DNA from: Diphasiastrum complanatum
Taxonomy: Eukaryota > Streptophyta > Lycopodiopsida > Lycopodiales > Lycopodiaceae
Length of the DNA stretch: 64,000 nucleotides
Direction: 5' to 3'
Assembly: GCA_029204225.1 (NCBI GenBank)
Contig: CM055100.1
Location: forward strand, 9,927,058-9,991,057
Within the stretch, counting starts at the first letter, position 1; every line of letters begins with the position of its first letter. Shown in pieces: positions 11,764-44,216 of this stretch. A model generated the notes under the pieces. That model had not been told where the DNA came from, searched no databases, and saw only the letters and a list, made by a program, of their open reading frames with translations. The position numbers and the translations under genes were made by a program.

Positions 11764-12285
11764 AGATGAGATCTCCTCATCTCCATCCTCTTCATATGCA
11801 AGGTTCCCTTGTTTGTCCTCCTCCTCTTTTGCTCTTAGCCTCTTGTAGCATTCGGATGCATAATGCCCTTTCTTTCCACAAAAAAAACATTTTTGCTTTG
11901 ACTTGTCCTTTGAGCTTGATGCATCATCCTCTTCTTTGGCCTCCTTTGGAGCTTCTTATTTCCATTGGTCTTCTTTTTGCCCTTGAATGAGAAATTGGCT
12001 TTCTCATATCCATCCTGCAAAGATAATGAACTCATTCTTGCCTTGGTGTAGAGCATCCTACACTCTTCAGCCACTAATACACTACTATGAAGTTTTTCTA
12101 TAGTTGGCAAAGTGTCTTGGATGACAAAACTTTGGACCAAATTTGCAAAGTCATCTCCTATACCATTAAGAACAATTTGTACAAGCTCTCCATCATGAAT
12201 CTTCTCTCCAATGGAAGCCAACTCCCTATTTAGAGACTTAATTCTGCATTAGAGGAGTTCTCAATATCAAAAAGACCCTTTGTAA
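11764..12285 (-). pseudogene. gag: Copia gag, C-terminal half with frameshifted zinc knuckle
   Basis: The frame (ELASIGEKIHDGELVQIVLN, then SFVIQDTLPTIEKLHS) is typical UBN2-type copia gag, rich in Lys towards the end. The CCHC knuckle near 11870-11900 is out of frame at a run of eight A on the plus strand. Homologous codons at 60350-60400 read CFFCEKKGHYASKC. The right end merges into the shared junction sequence at 12247-12285. Confidence 0.75.
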
Positions 12286-13217
12286 AGATACTTTTATTTT
12301 TTTTCTTTAGTTTCGACCGTCACCAGGCCCAATCAAAATGCACAGATTTGAAATCTACGTAACGTAGTTCAAATCAACTAAAAAATCAAAATGCAATATA
12401 GAAAACTTTGAAACTTGTGTCCGGGCAGCATGGACGTATCCCATTGGTTTCTTCTTCCTGCCCGACACATGCTAATCTGCCCGACGTCAATACCTCAAGT
12501 TAAATTTACTTGACTATGCTGGTTAGTATAATAAAATTTTCTAACTATACTAGTTACAGTTATAGAAATATAGTATGTACAGTTACATAAAATATGGTAT
12601 ATGCAGTAACTGTGTCTATGTTGGCATTCACATTAGATTAAATGTGATACAAAAAATTAAAATTAAGTAACATATCAGAGAGATTTTTGGCGCCCAAGCT
12701 TTGAAAATAGCAATGACAAGGAGACCCAGATCTACAATCGATTCTGTGATTCTTTACAATGAGAAAGATGAAGCTGATAACTAGAAGCCAACAAAATATA
12801 CGAAGAACTCATGGGTATTGCTGCATCCATCATCAAAAGGCAATTTTCGACAAAAGAAAAGAGCAAAAATGACTTACAAATATTATTGGAAAGCAAAAAT
12901 TTTGGAGTTTAAGACTACCCCGGGAGGTCAATCGATATTAGAAGTCTTAGTGCAACATGTATATATGCATTCAGAAATCAAAGTACATGATATCAATCCT
13001 CATGATCATCAAAAATGTAATTGTAAGTATATCAAAACATATGCACTCTACAACAATCATAGGTGATTTCCTTTATTGATGCTCTTCAGATTATGATTTA
13101 AATGCTTCAACATTGTTTTTTTCTTTCAGATTTATATCCATCATGCATAAGTGAATGGGAGCCCGCACAATCACTTGCAGGAATATGAGATGTGATTCAC
13201 TTTGATGTTGGAAAGCT
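12286..13217 (+). pseudogene. Family C protein, copy 1, first exons
   Basis: An ATG at 12713 opens MTRRPRSTIDSVILYNEK, then a stop (TAG where copy 3 has Trp) near 12782. The frame resumes to 13034 with SYWK/YYWK, TPGGQSI, VQHVYMHS and a Cys-rich QKCNC. A GTAAG donor (about 13024) and a CAG acceptor (about 13130) delimit an intron at the same place as in copy 3. Exon 2 (SEWEPAQSLAG) is cut by copia element 2 at about 13218. The 430 bases upstream hold no ORF. Confidence 0.6.
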
Positions 13218-14045
13218 GCAATACATAGATCTGGCACTTTCCACAATCGTACGATTCTTGCACTCAGCTACACCATTGAGAGCAAGAGTATGAGCTTGTG
13301 TAGATTGTCTTTTAATACCACATTGATCACAAAGATCATTGAAGTCATTAGACTTGTACTCACCTCCACTATCTAATCTTAGGACTTTGATCTTCCTACC
13401 TGTCTGATTTTCGACCAATGCTTTGAAGCTCTTGAAGTTGTCAAATGCATCTGATTTTTTCTTAAAGAAGTAGATCCACATCTTACGTGACATATCATCA
13501 ATAAAGGTCATGAAATAGAAGGCTTTACCTAAGGACATGGTCCTCATAGGTCCACAGAAATATGTGTGGATTAAATCCAGGATGTTCTTTGCTCTTGCAA
13601 CACCCCCTTTATTGAGCTTCTCTCGATGTTGCTTCCCATATACGCAAGATTCGCACATCGATTTCAAGTGATCTTCTATGGTAGGCAATCTTATTACCAT
13701 CTCCAATTTTCTCATCAAATTGAGGCTTCCCAGGTTCAAGTGACCAAGCCTCTTATGCCACAACTTAGTTTGCGATGGAATGGAAGATACAAGTCCATGT
13801 TGCCCCTTGATTGTAGCATTCAACATGTACAATTTTGTATTGGGCTCAATAACTTTGATCTTTTGGTTCACATCTTTCACAAAGCTACGATCATGGACAA
13901 ATTCTACTTTCAACTTTTGATCAGTAATGACTCCAACAGAAAGTAGATTTTTCTTCAAACCTGGTACGTAAAGTACCTCCCTGATCATCCTGCTTTTGCC
14001 ATCAGGTAGTTGGATTGAAACGGTGCTATCCCCTTGATCTTGCAC
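13218..14045 (-). pseudogene. Copia GAG-pre-integrase and integrase core
   Basis: GAG-pre-integrase motifs are LWHKRLGHLNLGSLNLM and CESCVYGKQHRE. The integrase core follows with TFIDDMSRKMWIYF (first Asp), VLRLDSGGEYKS (second Asp) and NGVAECKNRTIVE (Glu). All three catalytic residues are visible, but the domain is cut just after VESARSM at the junction with family C. The frame begins inside the protease domain. Confidence 0.85.
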
Positions 14046-16201: not shown

Positions 16202-16901
16202 TGTGAAAAATTGCCTATGTTGTCAAATCTAGCCATGTAGAACTTTGTAAATATTGTGTATAATTGGGTTCCACACATGTAAGGCCAATATGCAATGTGG
16301 CAACCCACTCCTAATGTAGGTTAGTTCAAGTCAAGAGAGTTGTTCATGTCTATTTGGTGGTCGTCCCTACTTTATAGGACCTACACCTTAGTTTAAGGTG
16401 GAAATTTGACCAACTAGCTACCTACCAATCATAACTCTAGGATCTAGACTAGGGTTTCATTTCAGGGCAAGAAGAAGGAGTTAACTTCCTTATTACATGC
16501 TGGAAATCCACCTAACTTCAAGAAGGGACTCGAGTTTGCTATGTATTCCAAGCTCTCATAGTGAGAAGATAGAATATTTTTGGAGCTCATTGGCAATCTC
16601 AAGCTAGTTCACTATGTACATTGAGTTTTTGTGATCCAAATGCAGCCAAATCAATTTCTACTTGTTTCTTAGCTTGAAGGTCGCACTACAGCCTGTAGTA
16701 CACACATGTGGGCTCGGATTTCAATGTTGATCAATGGTTTATATTGTTAATGCTTATTGTTTGTCAAATTGCCAATCTAGATCAACTTTTGTGTGTCTAG
16801 TTTTTTGATAGATTGTTAAGCAAGCATCCAATCACTCTTGTGGATCTTTTGTAGATCCCTTTATGGTCCTAAAGTACAGTACTTTCAAATGGTATCAGAT
16901 C
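16202..16901 (+). repeat. Copia element 7, 5' LTR and initiator-tRNA-Met primer site
   Basis: The LTR starts TGTGAAAAATTGCC and ends ...GTACTTTCA at 16887. Two bases later TGGTATCAGA (16890 on) matches the initiator-Met primer site. The LTR is related end to end to that at 61970-62673. It contains a CACACATGTG-type palindrome. Downstream 16902-17698 is a non-coding leader with a duplicated block (about 17340-17460 and 17520-17640). Confidence 0.75.
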
Positions 16902-17698
16902 CAAGTACAAGAGCATAAGCCATTGATCTAATGCAAATCCATTTTTAGCAGGTTTTGGTGCTAAAAACTAGTATTGAGAGGGCAAGCTAGAATCTTGATT
17001 TTGGTGAGGAGATTTGATCCCAAACTTGGTGGGGGTACAAATCCATACTGTCCACATGTGTGTACACCTCTGAACCTACATTTAATGCATGGTATTCATT
17101 TGATCCAAAGAAATTCAATTTGTGAGGTTTTGATGTAATTTTTGGTGGAAATCTTAGGATAAGCTACCAAGATTGAGCGCCATTGATTAGATTTGACTTA
17201 GGGTCATGAGATCTAATTAATCTAGGCTGAAATTAGGTCCTCTAAACTTGTTTTAAAGGTCTTGAAAGTACATCAAAAAGTGTGAAAGAGATTAAGTCAT
17301 TTTTTGGTCCAAAAATAGCCAAAATTGGCAAGATTTGATTGTAAGTAGATTTCACATCATCTTATCTTCATTCCAACTTTGTGAGGGAGTGCTAGAACTG
17401 AGATTATAAGTCCATTTGTTGGATTAGAAATCTAATTTGTGTGAAACACTACAAGAGAGAGACCTTAGTGAGTTTCTAGAGACAATCAAATCCATTTCTT
17501 GGCAAGATTTGTTTGAAAGTAGTTTTCACTTCATCTTATCTTCATTATAGCTTTGTGAGGGAGTGATAGAACTATGATTATAAGTCCATTTGTTGGATTA
17601 GAAATCAAATGAAACATTGCAAGTGTGAGACCTTTGTGAGTTTCAAGTCATTCAAATCTATTTCTTGTTTGTAGAAGTCACTAGTAAGATGGGATCTA

Positions 17699-17953
17699 CT
17701 GGAGCATATCTTCTAGAATCTAGTGAGGGATTGAATTCTACAAATTATGCTATTTGAAAGGTTAGGATGGAGTCAATCTTGGTGCTCCAAGACCTTTATG
17801 AGTTCTTGATTGTAAATGAAGATGAACCTCTAGGTGCACAAAAGTTAGCTGGATACAAGAAGAGATCTAGGCTTGCACTTCATTGTGTGAAGATGAATGT
17901 GAGCAATGATTTGCTGAGAGAAGTATCAGCTTGTACTAGTGGATTATGTACTC
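17699..17953 (+). pseudogene. gag: Copia gag N-terminus
   Basis: ATG at 17699 opens MGSTGAYLLESSEGLNS, then NYAI followed by TGA where copia Gag normally has Trp. The frame continues KVRMESILVLQDLYEF and LLREVSACTS, the usual UBN2 gag start. It stops where the following domain is expected; the next ~60 bases hold that domain inverted. Confidence 0.75.
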
Positions 17954-18010
17954 CATTAGAGGAGTTCTCAATATCAAAAAGACCCTTTAAGGAATGCCAT
18001 GTAGGATATA
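17954..18010 (-). other. Inverted copia gag snippet at a rearrangement junction
   Basis: Read on the minus strand the segment gives WHSLKGLFDIENSSN, the gag block expected next after the plus-strand gag. A 35-bp core is shared with 12247-12281 and 38272-38306, both at the left edge of family C fragments. This implies inversion or repeated capture of the same junction. Confidence 0.45.
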
Positions 18011-18540
18011 CAAAAATATCAAAATAAATAAAACAATATTGTTTATTTGCTTGCCCACACCACTCCCAAGGCCTCCCCAACTTCCAATGATCTAACCACA
18101 GTGTCTATAGTCACAGTTAAGAACTGTTAACATTCGTAGTATAACTTGACTAAATCAAAAAATATTCCCTCCATTGGTTACAAAAAGGGCAATATTTTCA
18201 CTGGATCTAGAATATGACCGCCATCCCCAAATTCGAATCAGGAAAAATTGCAAAATTTTTACATATGCATTCCTTCCACGAGAATAGAAATATGAGCGCC
18301 AACTACCTATTGGAATGAAAAAATGAGCGGCATTTCCAAATTTGAATCAAGCATACAAGCATGGAGATTGGATTAATCATACATAGTATATAATATAATC
18401 AAAGATGAGTATTTTGTTTTACTTCATAGAATCTGGTCATAGTACTTTGATGCAACTGATTACTCTATTATTTTTTTGATGATGACATTATATCATCTAC
18501 ATGTGGATATCCCTATTGATTTGGCACCTTTGCAAGAGGA

Positions 18541-20345
18541 GGCAAAGGAGTTCAAATATCTGCTGAAGATCGTTCTCGTTACAAGACAGAAGGAAAGAAA
18601 AACGTGGATTTGTGGACAGATGGAACATTATATCCACAAGATCCAAGCACTTTGACACATCCCACATTCTCTTCAATAACTCATTTAGTTACATGGATAT
18701 GCAATGGGCATAGTGAATTACTAGGATATTGTGAAAGATCGCAAAACCATGGAAAACAACTTTATATGAATAAAGTTCACTTTTTAGAAGGTGAGTTAAT
18801 TCGGATATCCTCTTATTGCCAGAATAGAGATTGTCATCTCCAAAAGACGTTGGAAGAAAATGAACAACTTAAAAAAAATAATGAATAATTACAGAAGATA
18901 ACAATCAATATCAAATCAGAACTAGAGCAAATACAATCAGTCTTACAGTCTATTCGTATTGAAAACTTATAATTACTGAAGGATGTGGATTTGGTAAAGA
19001 AGAAGGCTGAAAGTAAGAAGCGAAAGTGACAAAGTTGCAAGGATATTCAAACGCTTTCAAAAGGAGGTTATCAAAATAGAAGGATCCGTGCATTCAAGTA
19101 AGCATATTCTGAATTTTTTAATTTTTTCAATGACATTTGGATTTAATTTCAGCTATGGTGATATTCTGTTAACTATCTATTTTTTTTGCGGATCTGCATT
19201 AGTAGCTCCTCTGAATATTAAAGACAATGCTTTACTAGGAATGTCATTGGGCACAATATTGACTTGCAAATCCACTGAGCGTATCATGATGAGCAATAGG
19301 ATTTCAAATGTAAAGTGTAAAATAGCAGAGTCTTTGATGGTGGACATTCACAATATTTTAGATAAGACTATAGTTCAGGGTGCTTGTGATTTTGCAGGGA
19401 TTCGTAGGGAAGCATATGCAACAATATTTAAACTAATTAGAGAAGCTTTTAAGCAAGTTCAAATTAGAAAAGTCCCAATCACTAGGACATATCACTTGAA
19501 GAAAGAGAGGAATACATTAAACATAGATATGCATAAGATCACTAGAACTCCATCTCATATTGAGGAGGTGTATGAAACTGATGGAAGATCGATATTCTAT
19601 AATTCATCAAACAATTTATTTGTTGATCTAAATTACTTGCTGAGATACATCGTCACATTCTATGATATAACCTATGAAAAGGTGAATGGCAAAATAATCA
19701 TAGTACTTAAGTTAGATGAGTCAGAAATTGTGAAAGGGCAGAAGATGGAAAGGGTTAGTATAACTCTCATGAATGGTGCTCTATCCCAAACAGAGAACCA
19801 AGAAAATTTCAGATTCAGTGTCCAGTCAGAAAATGATATATGGTGGTTGGAAGTGTTTCAGGTAACTAGCCTCATTATCACATTACATTCATTGAATAGT
19901 ATTAATTCATTATAAACTAAGTCTGATTCATTCTTTGGACAGGTGCTGAAAGAGGATCATGATATATTATCATGGATATTCTCAAGGACATCTTATCCTA
20001 GGATCATCAAGGACTATATGGATAAAGGACTTCTCAATGTTCCATGAGTTGGAGACTTCAATGTTGAATGGCACTTAGCAGGTGATTTGAAAACATGGAA
20101 ATGTATGTATAATGTCTCTCACGGTGCTACATCAAAAAACCCTTGTTTGTACTGCATGAAAATGGCAAAAGATGTAACTAGGAGTATAGGAATTACTAGA
20201 GAATATGCAGATCTAAACTGGAAGCATGTGGTGTCTATCCCCTTAAAAAAATGTGCATGTTTGCACTCTTCATGCAGAAGTTAGATTAATAGAAAAGATC
20301 ATCTATCTTCATATAGTTTTTTCTTGGAATACTAAGCCAGCATCA
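18541..20345 (+). pseudogene. Transposase-like multi-exon region of family C
   Basis: 18604-18888 encodes a hydrophilic frame ending in a coiled coil (LEENEQLKKNNE). 19200-19861 encodes a basic globular region (ACDFAGIRREAYATIFKLI). A GT donor at 19862 and an AG acceptor at 19942 bracket an 81-bp intron. The next exon has VEWHLAGDLKTWKCMY, then NPCLYCM, and after a shift in an A-run (about 20250) TLHAEVRLIEKIIYLH. GD..K followed by a CxxC pair and LHA..R resembles RNase H-fold transposases of uncharacterised eukaryotic mobile elements, from memory only. A TGA at 20046-20048 interrupts the frame. Confidence 0.4.
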
Positions 20346-20395
20346 TTAGCAAAGGAAGCTATCTATTCGGTTTTCGTGTCATTTATACTAAACTT

Positions 20396-20675
20396 TTGCA
20401 CGTGTGGTCAACGGACTTAGGACACGTGTCTACTTTCAATTGGACAACAGTTGCAGACACGTGTGAGATGACACCTGCACATGTGTGAAATGACACTTGG
20501 ACACGTGTCGCGTGTTCATTCGATTGCTCATAAACACATGTCGCTCTCGCATTCGATCGTACAAATCCCACACGTGTAGTGTGACAGGGTGACACATGTT
20601 GCTCTCGCATTTGTTTGTACAGCTTTCACATGTGTGACAGGACGTTCTTTCGCATGTGCGAACCCTGATATAAAA
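20396..20675 (+). promoter_or_regulatory. Cluster of ten ACACGTGT/CACATGTG boxes plus TATA box
   Basis: Ten palindromic CACGTG or CATGTG cores (near 20400, 20424, 20459, 20479, 20501, 20536, 20573, 20594, 20628 and 20652) are flanked mostly by ACA/TGT. A TATAAAA follows at 20669-20675. Such G-box/E-box cores bind plant bZIP and bHLH factors. The cluster lies 313 bases upstream of the histone-like ATG and is a plausible promoter for it. Confidence 0.5.
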
Positions 20676-20987
20676 TCACAAATTTCGATGAACTCTTTTC
20701 ATTTTTTTTTTCGCTCCGCATATCGCATTTGTACGCACCCTTCACAATCGAAATTCCTCCTACTACCTTCCATGCGCACAAGTCCGATACATCTGCCTAC
20801 GTGTCACCCCATATCGCACTTGTGTGTCTTTTCTCAAATCTAATTGTTCTCTCTCATATTCGGCTCGCATAGGTCCGATATACCGTACATTATGTCCGTA
20901 CATAGCGATCCTCTGTGAGTTCTTTATCATCCCTCCCTTCTCATCCTAACCTTCACGCACAAGTCCGCTATCACATAGTTCACGCCC

Positions 20988-21686
20988 ATGGATAGGAGAA
21001 AGTAGACAAGGAGAGACTTCTTCTCTCCTGGCTCATCCTCATCTCCTGCGGTTGCCATCACACCACCTGCTAGACCTAGAATGCGCAACCGCAGCAGGTG
21101 GCTCTCTGAGATATGCAAGTATCAGAGGTCAACAGCTCTGTTGATCCCAAGAGCTCCATTCTACCGTGCTGTCCGGAACATGACAAAAACTTATCTCAGA
21201 CAACACGTTAGATTCACACCGAGTGCTCTTCAGTGCCTTTAGGAGGCTGCTGAAGATTATATTAGCCTTTTTTTTGAGGATTCTTTTTTGCTTGCCATCC
21301 ATACCAAGAGGGTTACCATAATGCCCAAGAATTTTCAGCTTCTGATAAGAATGAGGGATAGGTACCGTAGGTTACATGTATCTCAGCCTTCTGCTCCTAG
21401 ACTAACTCCTGTAGATAGGACTAATCTTCCTACGAAGCGTCCTAGGAAGCAGACAGCCCCCAAGCGTGCTCCTAAGAAAGTGAAGCCTAACCCTTCAAAT
21501 TCTGTGAAGCCTATCCCAGAATCCATTGTAGATAATGCTACTGTTGATAATGCTGTAAATATAGCTACCTCTGTTTTGGATACTCCTATAATTGCTGTAG
21601 ATACTACACATCCCCCTCCTCCTCCTTCTCCCAATTTTTATAAATATATAGATTTGGATGATTATCTTAAATTTGAGAAGCTATAG
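20988..21686 (+). pseudogene. CENH3-like histone H3-fold protein with C-terminal extension
   Basis: A single frame of 232 codons with stops only at codons 6 (TAG, 21003-21005) and 85 (TAG, 21240-21242), both where H3 has Gln. The N-tail MDRRK.TRR echoes the H3 start. The fold runs from SEICKYQRSTALLIP (codons 40-54) through APFYRAVR (56-63) and VRFTPSAL (74-81) to FEDSFLLAIHTKRVTIMPK (96-114). LLIPxAPF, VRF, EAAEDY and one extra loop-1 residue are CENH3-like rather than canonical H3. No intron is present. Codons 129-232 are a Lys/Pro-rich tail ending DLDDYLKFE, which recurs beside the Ulp1-like domain at 41140. It could be a captured centromeric histone; function is unknown. Confidence 0.7.
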
Positions 21687-21699
21687 ATACAATTGGTAC

Positions 21700-22728
21700 T
21701 CCTTTTTGTTTTAGACTAGATGAACTTGATTTTAGTATTAATTTTAGAGTTCTAGATTGCCTGGATCTCAAAGACAGACGGGCTTCTATCAGTGATCTTG
21801 TGATAGAGTCCGGGCTTACACTCTTGCAATATGACATTGCAAGAGATTCATCAAATGAGTTGCTGGTGCAGAGTAACTTTCTGCTTCAGGCCTTCAAGGA
21901 GAACAATGACACATTGTCACAGTGTCTGACAAGTGGATTCACACAAGCAACAAAGTATCTGCTCATACCTTATCATACAAAGTAGGTTATACTAAATGCT
22001 TCTTGTTGTTTTATGCATTAACATTGGCATTATCAATGAAAATAGTTCTCAGAATTGCAACTAAAGAAATTTCAATCTTATTTTGTAGTGACCACTGGAG
22101 TTTAAACTTGATCTCTATTAAGAGATCTGTAAATAATATTATTAAATGTTTTTGTCTCAAGATGAATTCGATGAGAAATACGCATAAGGATGTAGATATA
22201 TACATTCCATATCTAAGTAAATATATTCCTACAGACGTTTCCCATTCCGTGGACTGGCAGATCGTCAGCTTGGAGGTAAACTCTGTCTTTCTTAATAGCA
22301 TTTTGAAATCAGTATTCTAATGAAATATTTTCAATCTAATTCATTCTGTTTCATAATTGATTTCTTGTGTGCTGAATTATTTTGCAGTCACCCCAGCAAA
22401 ATGATTCATTCAGATGTGGGTGGTACACATTGTACAATGCCAAGTTGTATTTTGAGTGGTTCATCCTTCAACAAGATGTTGATATTTCTAAGGTAATAAA
22501 TCTTGTTTATTCTTATTTTGGAATCATGATTAGTTTTCTATTTTGGTGATGTTATTGGCCATTACTAATACATGAATGTTCTATTTTGAAGTTTACACTC
22601 CTGAGTACACATCAAGCCTTGTGTACGAAATCAGACAAGAAATTATCCTAAGTATACTGGCTAGGGTAAGGCTTCAACCACCCGTTATTGATGATGGTGC
22701 AAAGGATGATGTAGTCGTACTAAATTAA
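21700..22728 (+). pseudogene. Ulp1/C48-like cysteine protease region of family C
   Basis: A helical stretch (LVIESGLTLLQYDIARDS, 21800-21985) precedes an exon (about 22090-22275) with SDHWSLNLISI, the HW...L motif of C48 proteases. An intron (22276-22387) leads to QQNDSFRCGWYTL, the Gln...Cys active-site block; the Cys codon is 22415-22417. A third exon ends at 22728 with LARVRLQPPV. The expected Asp reads Asn (MNSM). C48 proteases cleave SUMO-like modifiers and recur in plant transposons. The last splice is one base out of frame, so the copy is probably dead. Confidence 0.6.
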
Positions 22729-23585
22729 GATCAGAAAAAATATAGATAGCATAGAAAAAAAATACATGTATAGACTTCATAGAAAAATATACATTGATAT
22801 ATCAAATGCTGCTCCAGTTTATGAATTTGGGAGCACAAAATACATGTATAGATGCCCAACTTGGGCTTTCATTTATTGAATGAAAGAGTGTATACATAGA
22901 TTTTTACTAAAAAGGATATGCAAGATCTACACCACAAATCCAGCCTATTCAGTTTACCTGAATGTTGATTCCTACATCAATCCACAAGAAAACATGAAAT
23001 CTAATCCACTCTACGAAAGCAAGGGAACTAATCCACTCTAAGATCCACAACCACACACAAAGGAGATGGAGGGGCAAGATCATTAATGCATCACTCAAGA
23101 AACAAGAATGATCAAGGGGCTCAAGAATGCATCAAAACTCATGGAAGATCTTCTCATTTCAGCATGGAGTAGATACATTTATAAAAGCCTCCCTTTTACA
23201 AAGGGGGAGTCTCTTAAATAATCAAGAGAGCTCCTTAGGTGGCATCCTAGTGGCATTTCCACATTACACAAATTACAAGTGAAAATATGCTCTCCACTAG
23301 ATGCCACCATCAAAAGGTGGCTCACTCTACTTTTCTAAGAGGGGCCTACTTGCATTTATTACCTTGTCTAGAAATATTAGTTCCTACATAGTCATTCCAT
23401 CTTCCGGGATTCACCATGAGGCTTACACAATTATTGTTTGTTATTACTAACTAGCATTTCTTAGCTCTCATACTCGGCTCTCAGTCTTCATTAGTCTCGT
23501 CTTCTCAGAGACCTCCTCGGTCTAAGGTGAGAGGTGCTCTTGAGTTGCTCTGTCCGAGTATCTTGGAGATTCGTCAGAATCAACC
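22729..23585 (+). other. Spacer without recognised gene
   Basis: No ORF of note. A TATAAAAG box near 23180 and a CT-rich stretch (23465-23560) resemble the U3/R part of an LTR, but no second copy of this sequence occurs in the window to confirm that. Confidence 0.35.
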
Positions 23586-24360
23586 AACACTGAAAAACAT
23601 TTTGACAAAAAAGGAGCTATGGGAGATTGTGATAGGTGAAGAGACAGATTGAAGAAGATCAGAGGACATTTGACAGGAGAAAACGAAAAGCACAAACTAT
23701 CATCAACTTATCAGTTAGAGATGCAATTATTCCCTACATTTCAGATTTAGAAGGACCAAATGAAACATGGGATAGCTGATCACCTACTGAAGATCAAAGA
23801 GATTCGTGATCAATTAGCAACAGTTGGAGAGCGAGTTCAGGATCATGAGATCATGCAATTGACATTGAATAGTTTGAGTGAGTCGCATCAAATGTTTGTG
23901 ACAAGTATAGCCACACGGGAAAATCTTCCAACCTATGAAGAGTTAGGTGGACTGCTTTTACAGGAAGAACAACATCAAGAGAACTTGAGTCATCGCAACA
24001 GGGGATTTGATCAAGCTCTCACAGTAAGAGGACGTGGTGGCAGATTTGGACGTGGAAGACACCAATCAAGAGGTGGAAACTCAGATCATGGATTGTTTCA
24101 ACAATTTGAAGAACAATCCAATGATGGCCCAAATCGAGGCAATTGGAATCAAGGCGTCAAGGACGTGGCTATTCCAGGCAAAATAAACTTGAATATTGTA
24201 GGTACTGCAACAAACCTGGCCATTGGGAGCGTGAATGCTTCAAGAAATAGAAGGAGATAGAACAAAGAAAAGGCAAATGGAAAGCGGGCAATTATGCTGA
24301 TCAACATCAATTTGAGAATGATTATTATGAAGACAACTATGCTGATCAACATCAATACGA
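23586..24360 (+). pseudogene. gag: Copia element 3 gag
   Basis: The first part (KAQTIINLSVRDAIIP, about 23690-23760) is the gag N-terminal domain. An internal deletion then joins MKHGIADHLLKIKEIRDQL, whose frame runs to 24260 and includes an Arg/Gly-rich linker. A frameshift near 24170 precedes the zinc knuckle YCNKPGHWERECFKK (24200-24250). Confidence 0.8.
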
Positions 24361-25772
24361 TGATGATCAATATGCAAATGATATAGGTGAGAGTTCAAAC
24401 TTGTTCATTACAGCATTAATGACAAGTGATGAAGCTAAGGATACCTGGTACATTGATAGTGGTGCATCCAAGCACATGACTTCAAGGAAAGAGTGGTTTT
24501 CAGAACTCAAGGAAACTCAAAATGGTGATGAAGTTGGACAAGCTGATGGCCAATTACTATCTGTTAAAGGATTTGGAGTGGTACCAGTGAAGTTAGCCAG
24601 CGGGGAGATAAAGCGGATAAGCAATGTGCAATATGTACTTGGCTTAGGTAACAATCTACTATCTGTTGGGACGATGGCTGATCAACAACTCAAGGTTGAG
24701 TTTGACAGCGACAAATGTCTTGTCAAAGACATCAAGAATCACTACAAAGTTATTGCTACAAGAGCTAGAGTCAACAAGAATTGACTCTACAAATTGAATG
24801 CGAGATCTTTTACTTAAGCTATGGTAAGCACTGTTGATAGTCGAAGTGACCTTTGGCATCAAAGGTTTGGTCATATTAGTGCTCAAAGCTTGCAAATCCT
24901 TAAAAGAGATAATCTAGTTGTTGGATTGCCTGATATCTCTTTTGAAGGAAAAATTTGTGAGGGTTGCATTTTGGGAAAACAACATAGAGAGAGTCCCAAA
25001 GATGGAGCAAGAAGAGCCAATGGCATTCTTGATCTTATTCATAGTAATCTGTGTGGACCAATACAAACTAGGTCCATTAGTGGTTGTTACTATTTCATCA
25101 CATTCATTGATGACTATAGTAGACATATCTGGATTTATTTCATAAGCAAGAAATCTGATGCTTTTGCCAAGTTTAGAGAGTTCAAGGTTCTAGTTGAAAA
25201 ACAAACAGGTTGTTATATTAAGACTCTCAGATCAGATGGTGGCGGTGAGTATTTTTCAACAGAGTTTATAAATTTTTGCAAGGATCAGAGGATCAAGAGA
25301 CAAACTACTGCACCCTATTCACTACAACACAATGGAGTTGCAGAACAGAAAAACAGATCCATTGTGGAGAGAGATGGCTAGGGCAATGATTAAGAGCAAG
25401 GGTTTGCCAAATACCTTTTGGGCAGAAGCATGCAACACAGCTACTCATATCTTGAATCGGTGTTCTACGAAGTCCGTGGAGGGTAGGACACCTTACGAAG
25501 CTTTTATTGGAAAGAAACCTAATGTTCCTCATTTATGAGTATTTGGTTGTGATGCCTACGCTCATGTGCCTGATGAAAAATGAAAAAAGTTGGATGGAAA
25601 AGCTGTTAAGTATAGTTTGCTTGGATATGATGAAAGAGCCAAGGCATACAGGATGTATGACACAGATGCACAAAAGATCATGATTTCCAGAGATGTTACT
25701 TTTGATGAGATGGGTCAAATTGACCAAATAAAATTGACAATTTATTCCTTTGATGATAAAGCTAAAGTATAG
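24361..25772 (+). pseudogene. Copia element 3 protease and integrase
   Basis: The protease site is TWYIDSGASKHMTS (24450-24490). GAG-pre-integrase is LWHQRFGHISAQSL (24850). The integrase core has TFIDDYSRHIWIYF, LRSDGGGEYFS and NGVAEQKNRSIVE, giving all three acidic residues. A stop follows at 25381, and the chain continues in another frame (ARAMIKSKGLP) through the C-terminal DVTFDEMGQ at 25710. Stops at 24782, 24818, 25536 and 25580 disrupt it. Confidence 0.88.
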
Positions 25773-27410
25773 GTGAAGAAAGAAGTTGGTGTCAATATGG
25801 AAGAGCCAATGGAGAAAGATAGGGTTAATAATGAGACTCCTAGGAGAGTGCCTAAGTGGTACTTGTCAGTAACAGGGGATGCTAATAAGGGAGATACTTC
25901 TGAATCAAGTGAGCAGGGAGAGCTTAGGAGATCAAGCAGAAATCGAAAACCTCTAGCTCGACTAGAGATGAATCTAGCCCTAATGGGATCCATGTTAACG
26001 GCTCAAGAACCTAAAACTTTCAACAAAGCAAAGGAACACAAGGAGTGGTGTGTAGCTATGGAAACAGAAATGGAGGCTATATCAAAGAACAAAACGTGGG
26101 ACTTGGTTGAGCTACCTGATGGCAAGACACCTATCACATGTAAGTGGATCTACAAGACAAAGTATGGAGCCGATGGGCAACTCAACAAGTACAAGGCACG
26201 ACTAGTTGCAAGAGGCTTTGAGCAGCAAGAAGGTATAGACTTTGAGGAGACCTTCGCACCTGTAGCCAAAATGGTAACTATTTGTTCTATCATTGCAATT
26301 TCTGCTTTCTATGGTTGGAAAATTTAGCAAATGGACGTCAAATCTGCTTTTCTTAATGGAGTGTTGGATGAAGAGGTATATTTAGAGCAACCTCAGGGGC
26401 TTGTTGAGCCAGAGAGAGATCATTTGGTTTGTAAACTCAACAAAGCCATATATGGATTGAAGCAAGCACCACGAGTGTGGTACTCTTGCATTGATGAGCA
26501 CTTCAAGCGAAAAGGAATGGTAAAGGTACCTTTGACATGAGCAATTTAGGGTTGATGCATTATTGTCTTGGTATTGAAGTTTGGAAAAAGGAAGACAGTG
26601 TTATCTTACGCAGAGCAAGTATGCACAGGATCTATTATATAAGTTTAATATGCAGGATTGCAAGTCACTAAGTACTCCAATGGAGGCCAATATCAAACTG
26701 TCTGCATGATGAAGCCGAGAAAGTTGATGCATACTTGTACAGGTAGTTAGTGGTCAATTTAATCTATTTGATACACACATGACCTGACATTGCTTATGCT
26801 GTTGGTGTGGTAAGTCAATTTATGCAAGAGCCTAGTCAGACTCACTGGAAAGCTGCTAAACGTATTTTGAGATATGTTTGAGGCACATTAAATTTTGTCT
26901 TGAAGTATAATCAGTCTGAAGCCCTAATGTTGGTAGGTTATACAGATGCTGATTGGGCAGGAAATGTTGATAATAGACGATCTTCCAGTGGTCATACATT
27001 TAGCTATGGTACAGCTGTTGTTTCTTGGAACAGCAAGAAGCAACCTACAGTAGCATTCTCTTCGACGGAAGCTGAGTATCGTGCACTTAGCAATGCTACA
27101 CAAGAGGTAATATGGCTACGAAGACTACATATTGATTTGGGTCAATCATAGGTGGATGCTAAAACTGTATATTGCGACAACAGAAGTTGTATCCATCTTG
27201 CCAGAAACCCAATTCTACATGCTTGAACAAAACACATCAAGATACACCATCACCTTGTTCGAGAGAAACTAATTGATGGCACCATTGATCTAGTTTTTTG
27301 TAAATCTGAAGATCAAGTGGCTGATATTTTTACTAAGTCTTTAGGTAAATGTAAATTTGAGAACCTTCGTAGTCTCTTAGGCATAGAAAAATGTAATTTT
27401 ATCATTGAGG
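25773..27410 (+). pseudogene. Copia element 3 reverse transcriptase and RNase H
   Basis: RT begins with [16 protein letters not shown] and [13 protein letters not shown], continues [18 protein letters not shown] and [11 protein letters not shown], then jumps at about 26526 to [16 protein letters not shown]. The stretch with the catalytic YVDD is deleted. RNase H is at 26900-27350 (GYTDADWAGN, SSTEAEYRAL, DNRSCIHLARNP). A TAG at 26326 lies just before QMDVKSAF. Confidence 0.87.
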
Positions 27411-27416
27411 GAGAGT

Positions 27417-27900
<484 letters not shown>

Positions 27901-27906
27901 GGCACA

Positions 27907-27934
27907 CCCTAAACCCTAAACCCTAAACCCTAAA
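27907..27934 (+). repeat. Interstitial plant telomere repeat, four CCCTAAA units
   Basis: Four perfect CCCTAAA heptamers in tandem, the plant (Arabidopsis-type) telomere unit, between the copia element 3 LTR and the next copia remnant. The short length argues for an interstitial insertion rather than a chromosome end. Confidence 0.85.
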
Positions 27935-28393
27935 CACTATAGATAGGGGTCCCAGCCTGCCCAAAATGTGGCTAGAGCAAATTTTGAGGTCTTAGAAATG
28001 GCCCATAGCGTTGGGAGAGAGAGAGAACGAATAAATGACCAACAAGACGCGAACGAGAAATGAACTCGAACAAGAAACGAACGAGTAGCGAACTCGAACA
28101 TAAAATGTTCATGCGCAGCGGAATGAGTTAAATGACTCTCTCCCTAAGCATGACTACGCCTATCAGAATGAACAGAACAGATAGTAATTGAAATCACTGT
28201 CATTCTAGATTACGTAGCCAAACTTTTGAATGGACGAAGCGTGCTATTGTCGCAAAGGTGGACAAATTTCTGGGTATCGTAAGGTGTATAGGACTCGAAA
28301 TAGCCTATTAGGCTAGTCATGTGCTGAGTGGCTCCGGAGTCCAGGAACCAGGAACTGTCACCAGATGCTCCTTAATGGTTGGTCATGAAGGCA

Positions 28394-29402: not shown

Positions 29403-30080
<678 letters not shown>

Positions 30081-34709: not shown

Positions 34710-36216
34710 ATGGCATCCGTGGTTTTGCATTCCGCTATTGCAGCTCAAATACGGCTCGACATTAGAGTTGTACACACGAGATGGAGGACAAGCAAAAGTT
34801 GCAAGATAGTAATGGCAACTGCAACACCTGTGACTCTACGGTTTGTATACTTCTTTGCTGACTTGAGAAGAGAAGTATCAATTTTTTTGCGATAGGCTTC
34901 ACTTGCATGATGCATGTCTATGGATGTACATATTCATAGTTCTTTTTAATACGTAGGCTGATTTTGTGTAGTTCATGTGGCAGGGACACTGCACAAGGAA
35001 GATTCCTTGGGAACAGCTTCCATAGCAATGGAAAAGCTTCACGGACATGGCCGTCACAACAGCAGATAGAGATCATCAGGTCTTTAGAATCTTGGGCTGA
35101 AGAAATGATCCTACCGCTGCTAAAGCCTGTGGAGAAGTGCTGGCAACCTCATGATTACCTCCCAAATTTTTCATCAGATACTTTCATGGACGAGTTGCTG
35201 GAGCTAAAGCGTCGAACATTCCATTTGCCAAACGATTACCTTGTTTGTCTCGTGGGAGATATGATCACAGAAGAAGCTCTACCCACCTATCAATCGTTTT
35301 TGAATACATTCGAGGGAGTGAGAGACACCACGGTAGCTAGCCCGACGCCGTGGAACGTCTGGATTCGTGCGTGGACAGCGGAGGAGAACAGGCATGGAGA
35401 TTTGCTGAACAAGTACTTGTATTTGTCAGGGAGAGTGGATATGAGAATGGTAGAAAAAACCACGCAGTATCTGGTTCGCTCAGGAATGGTAATAGCCCCT
35501 CCTGAGTCATAACGTTTCTTGATCAAAGGTTTTTCTTGTAGTTCTGTAACAACAAAATCTAGCTAACGCAGTCGAATTCAATTGCTTAATTTTTTTCGCT
35601 ACGTAGATATAAACTGATTATTGCTGGTACCAATCGATCGTGACAGGAAACTCACGTCGACAGCAGCCCGTACAACGGATTCATCTACACGTCCTTCCAG
35701 GAGCGCGCCACCTTCATATCCCACGCAAACACTGCCAGGTTTGCTAAGGAGCATGGAGATGATAAACTGGCGACCATCTGTGGAATCATAGCATCTGACG
35801 AGAGGCGGCATGAAATCGCATATACAAGAATAGTAGGCAAACTTTTCGAGGTGGATCCCAACGGTGCAGTACTTGCATTTGCCGAGATGATGCGGAAGAA
35901 AATCACCATGCCCGCTCACCTTATGTTCGATGGAGAGAACTCTAGTCTATTCAAAGACTATGCAGCTGTTGCTCAGCGCTGCAACGTGTATACAGCCAAA
36001 GATTACGCGGATATCATGGAGCATCTCATAGCAACTTGGAAGATCGAGAAGATAAGCGCCCTATCAACCGAAGCTCTTCAAGCTCAGCAATATGTCTGTA
36101 GCTTACCATCACGAATGAGGAAACTAAGTGAGAGAGCCCATGATCAGGAGAGAGTGAAAGCAGAACGAGAGAGCAGAGCTTTCAGCTGGATTTTCCACAA
36201 GTCAGTGAAGCTCTAG
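34710..36216 (+). CDS. Plastidial acyl-[acyl-carrier-protein] desaturase (stearoyl-ACP desaturase family), three exons
   Basis: Exons 34710-34840, 34984-35488 and 35647-36216 join in frame with GT-AG introns to 401 codons, the usual length. Residues 1 to about 45 are basic and Ser/Thr/Ala-rich, fitting a chloroplast transit peptide. The ferritin-like core keeps all six di-iron ligands: E140 (TEEALPTYQ), E178 and H181 (TAEENRHG), E231 (SFQERATF), E264 and H267 (SDERRHE). Their spacing equals that of the castor enzyme. The protein would insert a cis double bond into stearoyl- or related acyl-ACP in the stroma using ferredoxin. Exact substrate and double-bond position cannot be told. Intron number matches other plant desaturases of this family. 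No disabling change is visible. Confidence 0.93.
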
Positions 36217-38271: not shown

Positions 38272-40045
38272 CATTAGAGGAGTTCTGAACTTAAAAATGA
38301 CACTTTGTAAAGATGCTTTTAATTTTTTTTCAAAATATCGTCCGACATGTGGCCCAATCAAAATGCATATATTTGAAATCTATGAAACATAGCTGAAAAT
38401 AAATAAGTTTTAGAAATAAACTTTTAAAAATTTTAAGATTGCCTTTAGGCAACATGCAATAATGCTATTGGTATACAATGTCTACCCTGAACGTGTGAAT
38501 CTGCCCGACGACATTGTCTCTAGTTAAAATATTAATATGTTGGTAAATTTCAAACTACACAGGTACAGGTAACATTTCGACAGTAAGCATAGTTACCACA
38601 TGTAGTTATTGTGGTCCAATCCCCTGGTCACATTTAATAAGTTTGATAGAACTTTGGATCTAGATAGTATGTCATAGATTTGAGAATTTGGTGCTGAACT
38701 TGTGGCAACAATCACTATGGCCAGGAGACCAAGATCCAAAATTGAATTCGTGATTCTTCACAATGAAAAGAATGAAGCTGGAATTTGGAAACCAACAAGA
38801 TACATGAAAAACTCATGGGTTCTACTGCATCTGTCCTCAAAAGGCATGTTTCGACCAAGGAAGAAGGGAAAGATGACATTCAAATCTTATTGGAAAGAAA
38901 AGATCCTTGATTTTAGGACTTCTCCAGGAGGGCAATCAATCTCAGAAGTCATGGTTCAGCATGTCTATATGCATTCAAAACTATATTTACAAGATTTCAA
39001 TATTCATGATTGCCAAAAATGTAACTGTAAGCTCAAAAGTTGTTGGGATCTATATTTTTACATTTATGCTTGTAGAAATCATATCAGTTATCATATATGT
39101 ATTGCATTCTTATAGATTTATATCCATCTAGCATAAGTGAATGGGAGTCAACACAATCTCTGGCAGGTATATTGGATGTGTTTCATACAGATATTGGAAA
39201 ATTACAACATAGAGGAAGAACTTTCAAAGAGCTTGCAAACAGTGGTATATCCTTCTATGAATCCAAATACATTCCAAATATGCATGGAGGTTTCGAAAAG
39301 CTTGAAGATATCCCACTGCCACATTTTGGAAGTGATGAATGCCTTGCACCTGATAGCATTGTGTCAGAATCTTTTAGATGAAAATTACTATTAGATTTGA
39401 AAAACTCAATGAAAGTGAGCACTGATCAAAAGTCAGTAGATTAAGTTGGTTTTTGTCCTTATATGTATTCGTTGATTTCTTTTCAAATGCAAATGTTTGT
39501 CGAACACCAACATTATTCGTTTGTAAGGATGTGCCAAATGACACTCTTTCAAATCTGATGGATGTGGGTTGAGATTGCAAGGAAGACGGAGATATTGAAT
39601 GTAGGATTAAGACATCTTCTATGATATTCCATTATTGTAAACACATGCTTAGACATTCAGTTACTAGAGATGGAAACGAACAAGTGGGACCTGGATGTCC
39701 TAGATCAAGACCTTCAAATGGATTGTCACACAAATTGAAAAGAAGTCCACATTTTCAATAATGATGATATGCTAACTATGATTGAAGTGGAGGATCATTG
39801 GAGCTCAAGTTATATCAATGCACAATGCAATTCTACCTGAACACTTCAGATTCATTATAAATGAAAAGCTGGTAACATTTTTTTGTGATTTGCAAATCAG
39901 TCAGTCATTACATATGTAGCTCTACTCAGAGAATAATCAGACTAACAAGTTGCTTTTCTTTCATACAGATACAAAGAAGACAGGAAAATACAACACTCTG
40001 CAAGAATATTCCTATAGATATCAACATTGTAGAAGAACAATGACA
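38272..40045 (+). pseudogene. Family C protein, copy 3, 5' exons
   Basis: ATG at 38716 opens MARRPRSKIEFVILHNEKNE. Exon 1 runs to 39026 (WVLLHLSSKGMF, SPGGQSISEVMVQHVYMHS, DCQKCNC). Intron 39027-39115 has GTAAG and TATAG ends. Exon 2 (39116-39381) gives SEWESTQSLAGILDVF and PNMHGGFEKLEDIPLPHF. This is the best-preserved copy of the N-terminal part. Downstream, 39400-40045 has further decayed exon-like pieces (for example LPEHFRFIINEKL). The first 440 bases contain the junction sequence shared with copy 1. Confidence 0.6.
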
Positions 40046-40289
40046 ACTCATACAGTCAATTGTACAAACTGATATCTGTATTTGGGGATTTAGTATAACT
40101 GTGCAAATAATTCTTTTTCTATTTTGTCTATATGTCTGTATTCTAGTGTATGCCTATGTTTGTATCTGTATGAAATCATAGTATATCTATCATAAAGAAA
40201 CTATATATTCAGCTTGGGTATTTACAAATTCCCCAGCCTCATTTTGAATCTGTACTACATCCTTGTTAACGTCAGACATATTATAACAG

Positions 40290-41190
40290 TCTTTGTTTGA
40301 GTTGTTGCTCTGGACAATATGCTGAGGATGAGCTCCTATCAAAACTTGTACACTCTGTCTGCTATATAATCACAGAGGGTAAACTACAATAAAATATATC
40401 ATATATTAGATGAAGATTTATGATAAACAATCATAATTACTTCATGAGAAAGGAAACTAAATAACTCAACTTCGAAATATCAACATCTTCCTGAATATTG
40501 TATCACTCAAAAAATAGCCTTACATTGTAGAGAGTACACCATGCATAGCTAAATGGGTCATTTTGTTGGGGTGTCTTCAATTGATTAATCATGGGAGGAG
40601 AAACTGACACTAAACAAAGATCATAATAAAAAATACGCACGAAGTATTCAATAATTACCTCAATACTAACAATTTTGAAATCCCCTATTGTGGCATTCTC
40701 TAATGAAAAGTATTTACAAACTGCCGATAGCAGCGAGTCAATATTTTTGTGTGTATTATCGGCAAAATTCATTTTCACACAAAAAAATTTATTACATTAT
40801 TTATAGCTATATTTACAGAGACTGTAGTCAAGCTCCAATGATCACTACAAAAAACAAAGAAGCATTCCATTAGATATATGATATAGTGATTACAAGTAAA
40901 CTTAAATATACAAACAAGTACTTGGTATGATATGGCATCACCAAAATCTTCACAGCTAGTGAGCATCCACCAAGGAGACAGTGTGCCAAATTGTCATTGT
41001 CGTCCTTGATGGCCTATAGAAAAAAATTGTTGAGAAGACAGGTTTGTTTTATTGAATCACTCGCAATATCAAATTGCAGGAGAGAAAGACCTGCCTCTAT
41101 CACTAGGCGATATTATCTATTGCATCTGATATATCTCTCTCAAATTTTAGATAATCTTCAAAATATAAGTATAATAGAGGGGGGAGTGCT
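40290..41190 (-). pseudogene. Family C copy 4: Ulp1-like protease region, catalytic Cys lost
   Basis: Minus strand: YFEDYLKFE (about 41150), LVIEAGLSLLQFDIA (about 41090), PYHTK, then SDHWSLTTVSV (40840) and QQNDPFSYAWCTL (40560-40525). These parallel 21640-22430. The active-site Cys is Tyr here, a Trp is TGA after VRLFFE, and the final exon (ELILSILSR, about 40340) has stops. The fragment faces copy 3, so the pair is inverted relative to a normal gene order. Confidence 0.6.
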
Positions 41191-42659: not shown

Positions 42660-44216
42660 GCAAAAACTTTAACTATGGAAACCAAAGACTTGCAAACTTG
42701 TTCTGCTCCATAAACTTCTGACAAGCTTTGAGAGCTTGTTTTGCTTGGGCGAGCTCTTGATTTGCGCTAGCCCAAACTCCGCCTAGTAGCTAGTATTGAG
42801 AGTTTTGACTGTAGACCTGCACCTGATGCCTGAAAAGATTCATCTCTGATTGAGATAGTGGCCTTGAATCAGGTTCAGGTTGAGCTAGCTAGGCAAGTTT
42901 TTCTTGTTGTAGACTCTGGACCTCCGCTCCCAAGCGTGCATTTTCTGCTTCGTAGATCTGTAGTGTGCTTGTAGGGGGGCAAGTCTTTGGGCAGCTTCTG
43001 ATTGCAGCAGAAGTGGAGACAAGGAGAGGGATAGTTTGTCCAAAAGAGAGAATGGGTGGAACAAAGGGGAACTAGAGGGTGGTGTGAAGAATGGAGGGAG
43101 AAGAAGGGGATGAAGTGGCCTGGTGTGGCAGTGAAAAGTTTATGACTTGCATCCAGGCTAGAGTGTCGGAAGACAACTGTGAATCAGAAGGATTGAATTG
43201 AAGAGGAACGATGGTGGAAACAGGAGGGATGGAGGAAGCGATAGTAATGGAAGAGGTGGTAGAAGATGGAACAAAGGGAGAAGTATCAATTTCAGAGGAG
43301 GTGGGTATGGAAACAGAAGTGGTGGTTGAGGGTTGAACAAGAGAAATAGGAGTGGAAACAGAAATTGCCTGTAGAGGGCTGTACAGAAGAAAAAGTGGTG
43401 TTGGTAGAAACATGAACTGTTAATGGTGTGGTGGTGGTGGTGTGGCGTCTGGTAACAGGTGGGGATGAGGAGGAGGGGGCAGCGTCATGCATTCTTTTGC
43501 TGGCCATCGTGTTAGTGACTGCAGGTTGGGCAGACGTGGATGCAGTGGATGGAGGATAAAGGTTAGTGTGTGGCACAGTGGATGATAAGATGCTGGAATG
43601 GCGGAACCCGCACACTTTCATCTCGAGAAGTGCACAAGCAAAATTACATAGCAGGGGGCCTGTTGTGATACCTTCACGCGCGTTTGGTTTGATGAAGATT
43701 GTTAGTTTGTGGATGAGGAAGGCATGCCAGTCGTATGGCAAAACCGTGGGGCCAGGGAATCCCAAGAAGGACTCCACAATCTGACCATGCAGCTTGGACT
43801 GGATTTTGTCTTTGCAAAATGTTGAAACAACCAAAAAGTTGTTCAACATATGTGCAGCCACCTGAATGACTAGGTCCGTGATAGCCTCTATCAGGTACTC
43901 GTTGTTAGTTTGGATCGGAATTTCAAGTGCAGTCTGGGTTATGAAAGGCTTTATCAGGGCTTTTGCCTGACGATGAGAGATGGGCTGGTGGTGACCGGCT
44001 GATGGTCGTCGGACAGATGTGCGGCCGCCTGAATGACTAGGTCCGTGATAGCCTCTATCAAGTACCCGTTGTTAGTTTGGATCAGAATTTCAAGTGTAGT
44101 CTGGGTTATGAAAGACTTTATCAGGGCTTTTACGAGACGATGAGAGATGGGCTGGTGGTCGCCTGCTGATGGTCGTCGGACAGGATGCCGACAGTGACCA
44201 TCGAGACTGCGTTAAT
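42660..44216 (-). pseudogene. Family A protein remnant, copy 2, with internal tandem duplication
   Basis: The minus strand shows the same order as copy 1: globular part with EYLIEAITDL and PYDWHAFLIHKL, TGPLLCNFACALLE, Ser/Thr/Pro-rich region (43070-43500), then the coiled coil (SQSEMNLFRHQVQVYSQ, about 42855-42800). A frameshift lies near 43370 and others further on. A segment of about 166 bp is duplicated in tandem (43848-44013 and 44014-44183). The 5' end joins a gag fragment at about 44216. Confidence 0.6.

Follow-up and report, generated by a model that had tools for sequence, protein, structure and literature searches.

A 64,000-nucleotide stretch of the Diphasiastrum complanatum genome (positions 9,927,058–9,991,057 of contig CM055100.1, forward strand; hereafter the window) contains the remnant of a DNA transposon bounded by terminal inverted repeats (TIRs). 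A histone H3-like reading frame within it was found to be the decayed 5′ part of a gene in which H3 is fused to a Ulp1 (SUMO-protease-type) domain, rather than a lone captured histone. Taken as a whole, the findings are best explained by a decayed H3-Ulp1 accessory gene of a TIR transposon, whose product would have counteracted silencing from within nucleosomes; we give this explanation a probability of roughly 0.6.

An H3-Ulp1 gene in decayed and open copies

The H3-like frame runs from 20988 to 21683 on the plus strand, with a stop codon at 21684–21686. Its translation, which comprises an H3 fold and a linker, contains in-frame TAG triplets at codons 6 and 85. The two halves either side of the second TAG scored 39.6 and 35.4 bits against the Pfam Histone profile (PF00125; cut-off 26.4), and the read-through frame matched PDB chains of H3 and CENP-A, with top scores of 77.9 and 76.6 bits. 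Modelling of the read-through protein with AlphaFold gave a structure that was weak overall (predicted local distance difference test, pLDDT, 63; predicted TM-score, pTM, 0.36) and good for residues 51–100 (pLDDT 80–89); it matched nucleosomal H3 with a best E value of 1.6e-5. The H3 resemblance of this frame is far above chance, and the H3 fold named in a preliminary description of the sequence is borne out by profile search, PDB matches and structure model alike.

Three Ulp1 exons follow on the same strand, at 21677–21981, 22089–22275 and 22388–22492. They join in one frame across two GT-AG introns, and the spliced product matches the Peptidase_C48 profile (PF02902) at 35.9 bits (cut-off 20.7). 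Exons 2 and 3, which hold the catalytic His (DHW) and Cys (QQND...CGW) respectively, were defined by splicing, by this match and by the comparison of copies. In open copies elsewhere in the genome, H3 and the first Ulp1 part are encoded by one exon; in the window their frames are out of register because of a short deletion. The stop at 21684–21686 is likewise due to the frame-shifting deletion, which is absent from the open copies, and what had been described as a basic C-terminal extension is actually the linker to Ulp1. The frame had also been called intronless; this holds for the histone piece itself but not for the whole gene, which continues into Ulp1 over two introns.

The window's own genome (1.74 Gb) was searched for the H3 piece, yielding 4,815 first-look candidates, 150 of which were scored. 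These matches were 82–100% identical, were spread over many contigs and, in 32 cases, had stops within the H3 part. Twenty-five loci were fetched, the first 20 being picked with a preference for long open frames and the later five regardless of frame. At least one Ulp1 exon lay downstream of H3 in all of them (20/20 and 5/5), and a transposase was found upstream on the same strand in 15/20 and 4/5 (19/25 altogether). Among the first 20 copies, the stop at codon 6 was absent in 17, and in 11 the frame ran uninterrupted through the whole fused exon. The preliminary description had proposed looking for further copies flanked by Ulp1 and for copies free of the TAG codons; both exist, and its view of the histone as mobile-element cargo is upheld by the repeated H3-Ulp1 copies across the genome. 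The outcome that it had named as speaking against this view was a processed pseudogene of the host centromeric histone (CENH3), lying by chance beside a Ulp1-bearing mobile element. An H3 part that is intronless and has two stops would fit such a pseudogene, but the recurrence of the H3-Ulp1 pair in every fetched copy, with both parts in one uninterrupted exon in 11 of the first 20, has already refuted it, and its probability is negligible.

Locus L025 was rejected as a separate insertion: it and the window locus are inverted segmental duplicates, with left flanks 99% identical. The duplicated segment (window 16286–26195; copy at G000:C9:10.04 Mb; 98–99% identity) includes the decayed element and its flanks. 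Among singleton changes in the copies, C-to-T (both strands) was the commonest. By site class, 15 changes were counted at about 94 CHG sites and 60 at about 390 CHH sites (H being A, C or T); CHG sites were not enriched, and methylation damage is therefore not claimed as the origin of the TAG codons.

Transposon anatomy and transposase

Homology among the copies ends abruptly at inverted repeats of about 35 bp starting CATTAGAGGAGTTCTC. Allowing at most three mismatches, this end pattern occurs 2,288 times in the genome (1,106 + 1,182), with 0 occurrences for a reversed-pattern control, which puts the number of copies, counting fragments, in the region of a thousand. Four of the 25 fetched copies have both ends: L009 (7,441 bp), L014 (8,681 bp), L029 (8,163 bp) and L032 (8,425 bp). 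Inverted repeats therefore bound many copies, as in TIR DNA transposons. The anatomy shows an element of about 7.5–9 kb with TIRs, a RAG1/Transib-like DDE transposase gene, the H3-Ulp1 gene and two genes on the opposite strand. The latter lie at L014:2637–4379 and L014:7039–8194 (minus). One of the two bears a CPYCNKKC motif, and the start of one is faintly BAH-like (15.8 bits; cut-off 30.8); the Pfam search of these genes gave sub-threshold matches only, including BAH and a TnsA-like match of 17.4 bits (cut-off 26.5).

The remnant that holds the histone frame spans 17954–22909 (+). It begins with the left TIR at 17954–17989 (+), which fits the pattern with one mismatch (0 expected) and corresponds to the ends that bound the fetched copies. 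Aligned with L014, it is 96% identical at 17954–18534, 93% at 19220–20364 and 92% at 20351–22909. The segment between the transposase and H3 has been deleted (near 20364), and homology stops at 22909, the right part of the element being missing. The truncated transposase gene occupies 18540–20364 (+; start approximate), and its exons join in frame across an intron at 19862–19942.

Inspection of the flanks of the four two-ended copies (four copies only) showed no target-site duplication in any of them. When joined, the flanks of L009 align, gap-free across the junction, with a copia copy that lacks the insertion (window 13953–13668). For L029, the sole spanning match (L026) has a 7-base gap adjoining the junction, so that a clean empty site is neither proved nor disproved; no empty site for L014 or L032 turned up in the sequence compared.

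The transposase has 28 relatives at E ≤ 1. The predicted fold of one of them, P0134, matches RAG1 and Transib, and it is in this predicted fold of the catalytic protein, together with its D-D-E layout, that the element resembles Transib, TransibSU/RAG-like transposons and RAG1. RAG-like transposons have a convergent second gene, according to the accessible part of PMC7204232, and gene B is likewise placed in the present element. The differences from Transib and RAG1 are the plant host, the other accessory genes and the lack of a match at the sequence level. In addition, a 5-bp target-site duplication is typical of Transib/RAG1, and a TransibSU copy has the duplication CCAGG (accessible part of PMC4411706), whereas none was seen in the four two-ended copies. 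Neither mark of hAT elements was found: no Pfam transposase domain scored above cut-off in the proteins scanned, and 0/4 copies had the 8-bp duplication. The element might represent a new superfamily of plant DNA transposons, with a RAG1-like transposase, insertion free of target-site duplication and a nucleosome-entering H3-SUMO-protease fusion that would erase SUMO-dependent silencing; this wider proposal is made tentatively, at odds somewhat below even. If true, the superfamily would be common to this genome and to ferns, and would either be hundreds of millions of years old or have moved between plants. Finding a RAG1-like transposase in a plant transposon is also relevant to how far relatives of the V(D)J recombinase have spread.

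Selection and origin of the histone

The ratio of non-synonymous to synonymous substitution rates (dN/dS) was estimated in a main set of 16 copies open past the H3 fold. The values were 0.30 (0.20–0.44) for the H3 fold, 0.29 (0.20–0.42) for the first Ulp1 part, 0.86 (0.62–1.22) for the linker and 0.41 (0.14–1.27) for the tail. In a wider set of 26 sequences (the 25 loci plus the window, broken ones included), Ulp1 exon 2 gave 0.39 (0.25–0.58) and exon 3 the lowest value, 0.21 (0.09–0.58). These ratios indicate purifying selection on the H3 and Ulp1 parts and no clear constraint on the linker; the H3-Ulp1 protein apparently stayed functional while the element spread, under tighter constraint in these copies than the transposase.

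These estimates bear on the idea of passive cargo, in which the element transduplicated a host H3 whose copies just ride along. There is a direct precedent in fungi: hAT elements of Pseudocercospora fijiensis and Pyrenophora tritici-repentis carry a transduplicated ordinary H3, and so are DNA transposons in which a coding sequence for H3 was amplified, to copy numbers in the tens or hundreds (accessible part of PMC6710886). Numerous broken copies, such as the 32 with stops in the H3 part, would also fit. The fungal elements, however, have an 8-bp target-site duplication and an ordinary H3, whereas the present one is RAG1-like, shows no duplication and has a divergent H3 fused to Ulp1; the same partial source describes the captured copies as all inactivated in P. 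fijiensis and many as apparently intact in P. tritici-repentis, while here the ratios point to purifying selection. This selection on the H3 fold and Ulp1, the adjacency of the two in all fetched copies and the existence in ferns of a divergent H3 family with an extension make passive cargo unlikely. No plant transposon carrying a histone was found in the open-licence literature at the level of titles and beginnings of abstracts; the earlier statement that no described plant transposon is known to have such a cargo stands to that extent, with the fungal hAT elements as a precedent for a captured H3.

A single-sequence search of 5.8 billion proteins returned one relative, P0002, and a two-sequence profile returned 305 at E ≤ 0.01, the best 120 of which were examined. 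Among these, most of the top relatives combine an H3-type tail with an H3 fold whose last helix is lengthened, and also share a conserved extension (ILNIPPxRKPK...IKIEEVTHxxDTR); CENH3 and H3 proteins came lower. The best 120 also included 11 gene models of Ceratopteris richardii, located on ten chromosomes according to their locus tags. In three Ceratopteris proteins (P0007, P0008 and P0030) the extension is present at least in its first part, and in P0035 the H3 is followed by a Ulp1-like stretch with CGW. In Adiantum capillus-veneris, P0031 contains H3, the extension and a Ulp1-like core with CGW in a single model, with a C48 score of 15.8 bits (below the cut-off of 20.7). P0034 (270 amino acids) is a further, divergent member of this family of H3 with extension, from a cluster of 33 member sequences. 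One scan of viral contigs (alignment A2) gave no relative. P0101 and P0141 each lie on a contig of 9,703 bases; this coincidence of length was rejected as a sign of linkage because P0101 is an ordinary-tailed H3.

The preliminary description had held that the captured histone was of CENH3 type. The element does share with CENH3/CENP-A the H3 fold, the LLIPxAPF motif and one extra residue in loop 1, which the alignment showed to be real. The motif had been thought to mark CENH3, but is found also in the ordinary-tailed H3 proteins P0101 and P0114. In the window and six aligned copies, the extra residue is followed by Phe, as in H3, and not by the Trp (RW) that accompanies the longer loop 1 in CENH3; most fern-type relatives in the alignment carry this Trp. 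The element differs from CENH3 also in its long linker, Ulp1 fusion and many copies. Two trees were built from 93 and 92 columns, with CENH3 sampled from flowering plants. The transposon H3s stood together opposite H3 and CENH3 across one branch (support 85/66 and 87/76), and the element fell outside the sampled flowering-plant CENH3 clade (97/88 in the first tree, 89/60 in the second). A weak branch of the second tree (70/77) placed the transposon H3s and CENH3 on one side, and constraining the element to group with CENH3 cost 4.5 log units and was not rejected (approximately unbiased test, p-AU 0.335). On this evidence the mobile cargo stands, and descent of its H3 from CENH3 is neither shown nor excluded.

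A CENH3-derived histone could target the element to centromeric chromatin, or disturb that chromatin. The LLIPRAPF sequence, the extra loop-1 residue, the Trp of most fern-type relatives and the unrejected CENH3 grouping would agree with such a centromere factor; the position outside the sampled clade, the absence of Trp from the element itself, the presence of the motif in ordinary-tailed H3s and the insertions on many contigs (centromere positions being unmapped) count against it, and we consider it distinctly unlikely.

Possible function, and other features of the window

A gene that joins H3 to a domain of the SUMO-protease type points to a mobile element that would edit chromatin from inside the nucleosome. 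The H3 part would pair with H4 and be built into nucleosomes, and the attached Ulp1 domain would thereby be placed in chromatin, where it could remove or bind SUMO on silencing factors. The fusion might then serve as an anti-silencing or integration-permissive factor, comparable to the Ulp1-bearing VANC proteins thought to serve VANDAL elements. The VANDAL/MULE elements with VANC/KIU are likewise plant DNA transposons with Ulp1 in an accessory gene, there linked to anti-silencing (accessible part of the review PMC13317346, in which the term histone is absent); they differ in being Mutator-like and without inverted repeats, whereas here Ulp1 is fused to H3. If the transposon keeps it under selection, a histone-SUMO protease fusion would be a rare example of a mobile element that works via the nucleosome itself, and would allow a direct approach to the ways in which plant transposons evade silencing.

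Several observations weigh against this explanation. The first 20 loci were chosen with a preference for open copies. With the queries used, no same-strand upstream transposase was matched in six of the 25 loci (L011, L013, L020, L023, L028 and L033), one of which, L023, unmatched with the initial queries, does contain the last transposase exon. In the 26-sequence set, dN/dS was higher for the H3 piece (0.47; 0.27–0.82), and values of 0.60–0.97 for the transposase pieces indicate little constraint. The modelled transposase, P0134, is a relative that shares about 36% identity with the protein in the window, and the transposase-family profile matched nothing among PDB sequences at E ≤ 10, which leaves the RAG1 relation at the level of fold only. 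A strong branch (100/98 and 100/96) sets the fern-type family apart from the element as well as from H3 and CENH3, and the branch of the window copy is long; an H3 may therefore have been captured separately, and the case for a single origin of the fusion in ferns and in this genome is one of common architecture and not of tree topology. Finally, at the position of the catalytic Asp of C48, 20 of 23 copies have Asn, three are gapped or garbled and none has Asp, and the Cys is lost in four of 23, so that protease activity is unsure.

The state of these residues would suit a different role, in which Ulp1 is a pseudo-protease or SUMO reader and H3 a decoy for H4 or histone chaperones, the fusion sequestering silencing factors with no cutting of SUMO. 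The His is nonetheless kept in 21/23 copies and the Cys in 19/23, and exon 3, which bears the Cys, has the lowest dN/dS. Asn serves as the third residue in papain-type proteases. A sequestering pseudo-protease is thus improbable, to about the same degree as the centromere factor, and the nucleosome-borne anti-silencing fusion remains the preferred explanation.

Two further pieces of the element were found in the window. An older, diverged right half occupies 38272–41170 (−), with its right end at 38272, Ulp1 remains at 41170–40470 (−) and, at 38717–39802 (+), the remains of the convergent gene C, the window counterpart of the opposite-strand genes; no H3 core was found upstream of this second-copy Ulp1. 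A right-end fragment of another copy (12247–13228, −) shares 94–95% identity with the right ends of L014 and L019 and has the end pattern with 0 mismatches.

Between the elements, two exon-like pieces of acyl-ACP-desaturase type (PF03405, 222 and 144 bits) at 34964–36216 (+) likely represent a host gene or pseudogene. A (TC)59 tract at 27547–27664 faces a (GA)58 tract at 29415–29530 across about 1.75 kb, and a short telomere-like array of ACCCTAA (27906–27939) lies between the two. The stretches 829–1659 and 43147–43987 are 73% alike and contain long minus-strand open reading frames of a repeat family, the second of them overlapping a 167-bp tandem repeat at 43846–44183.
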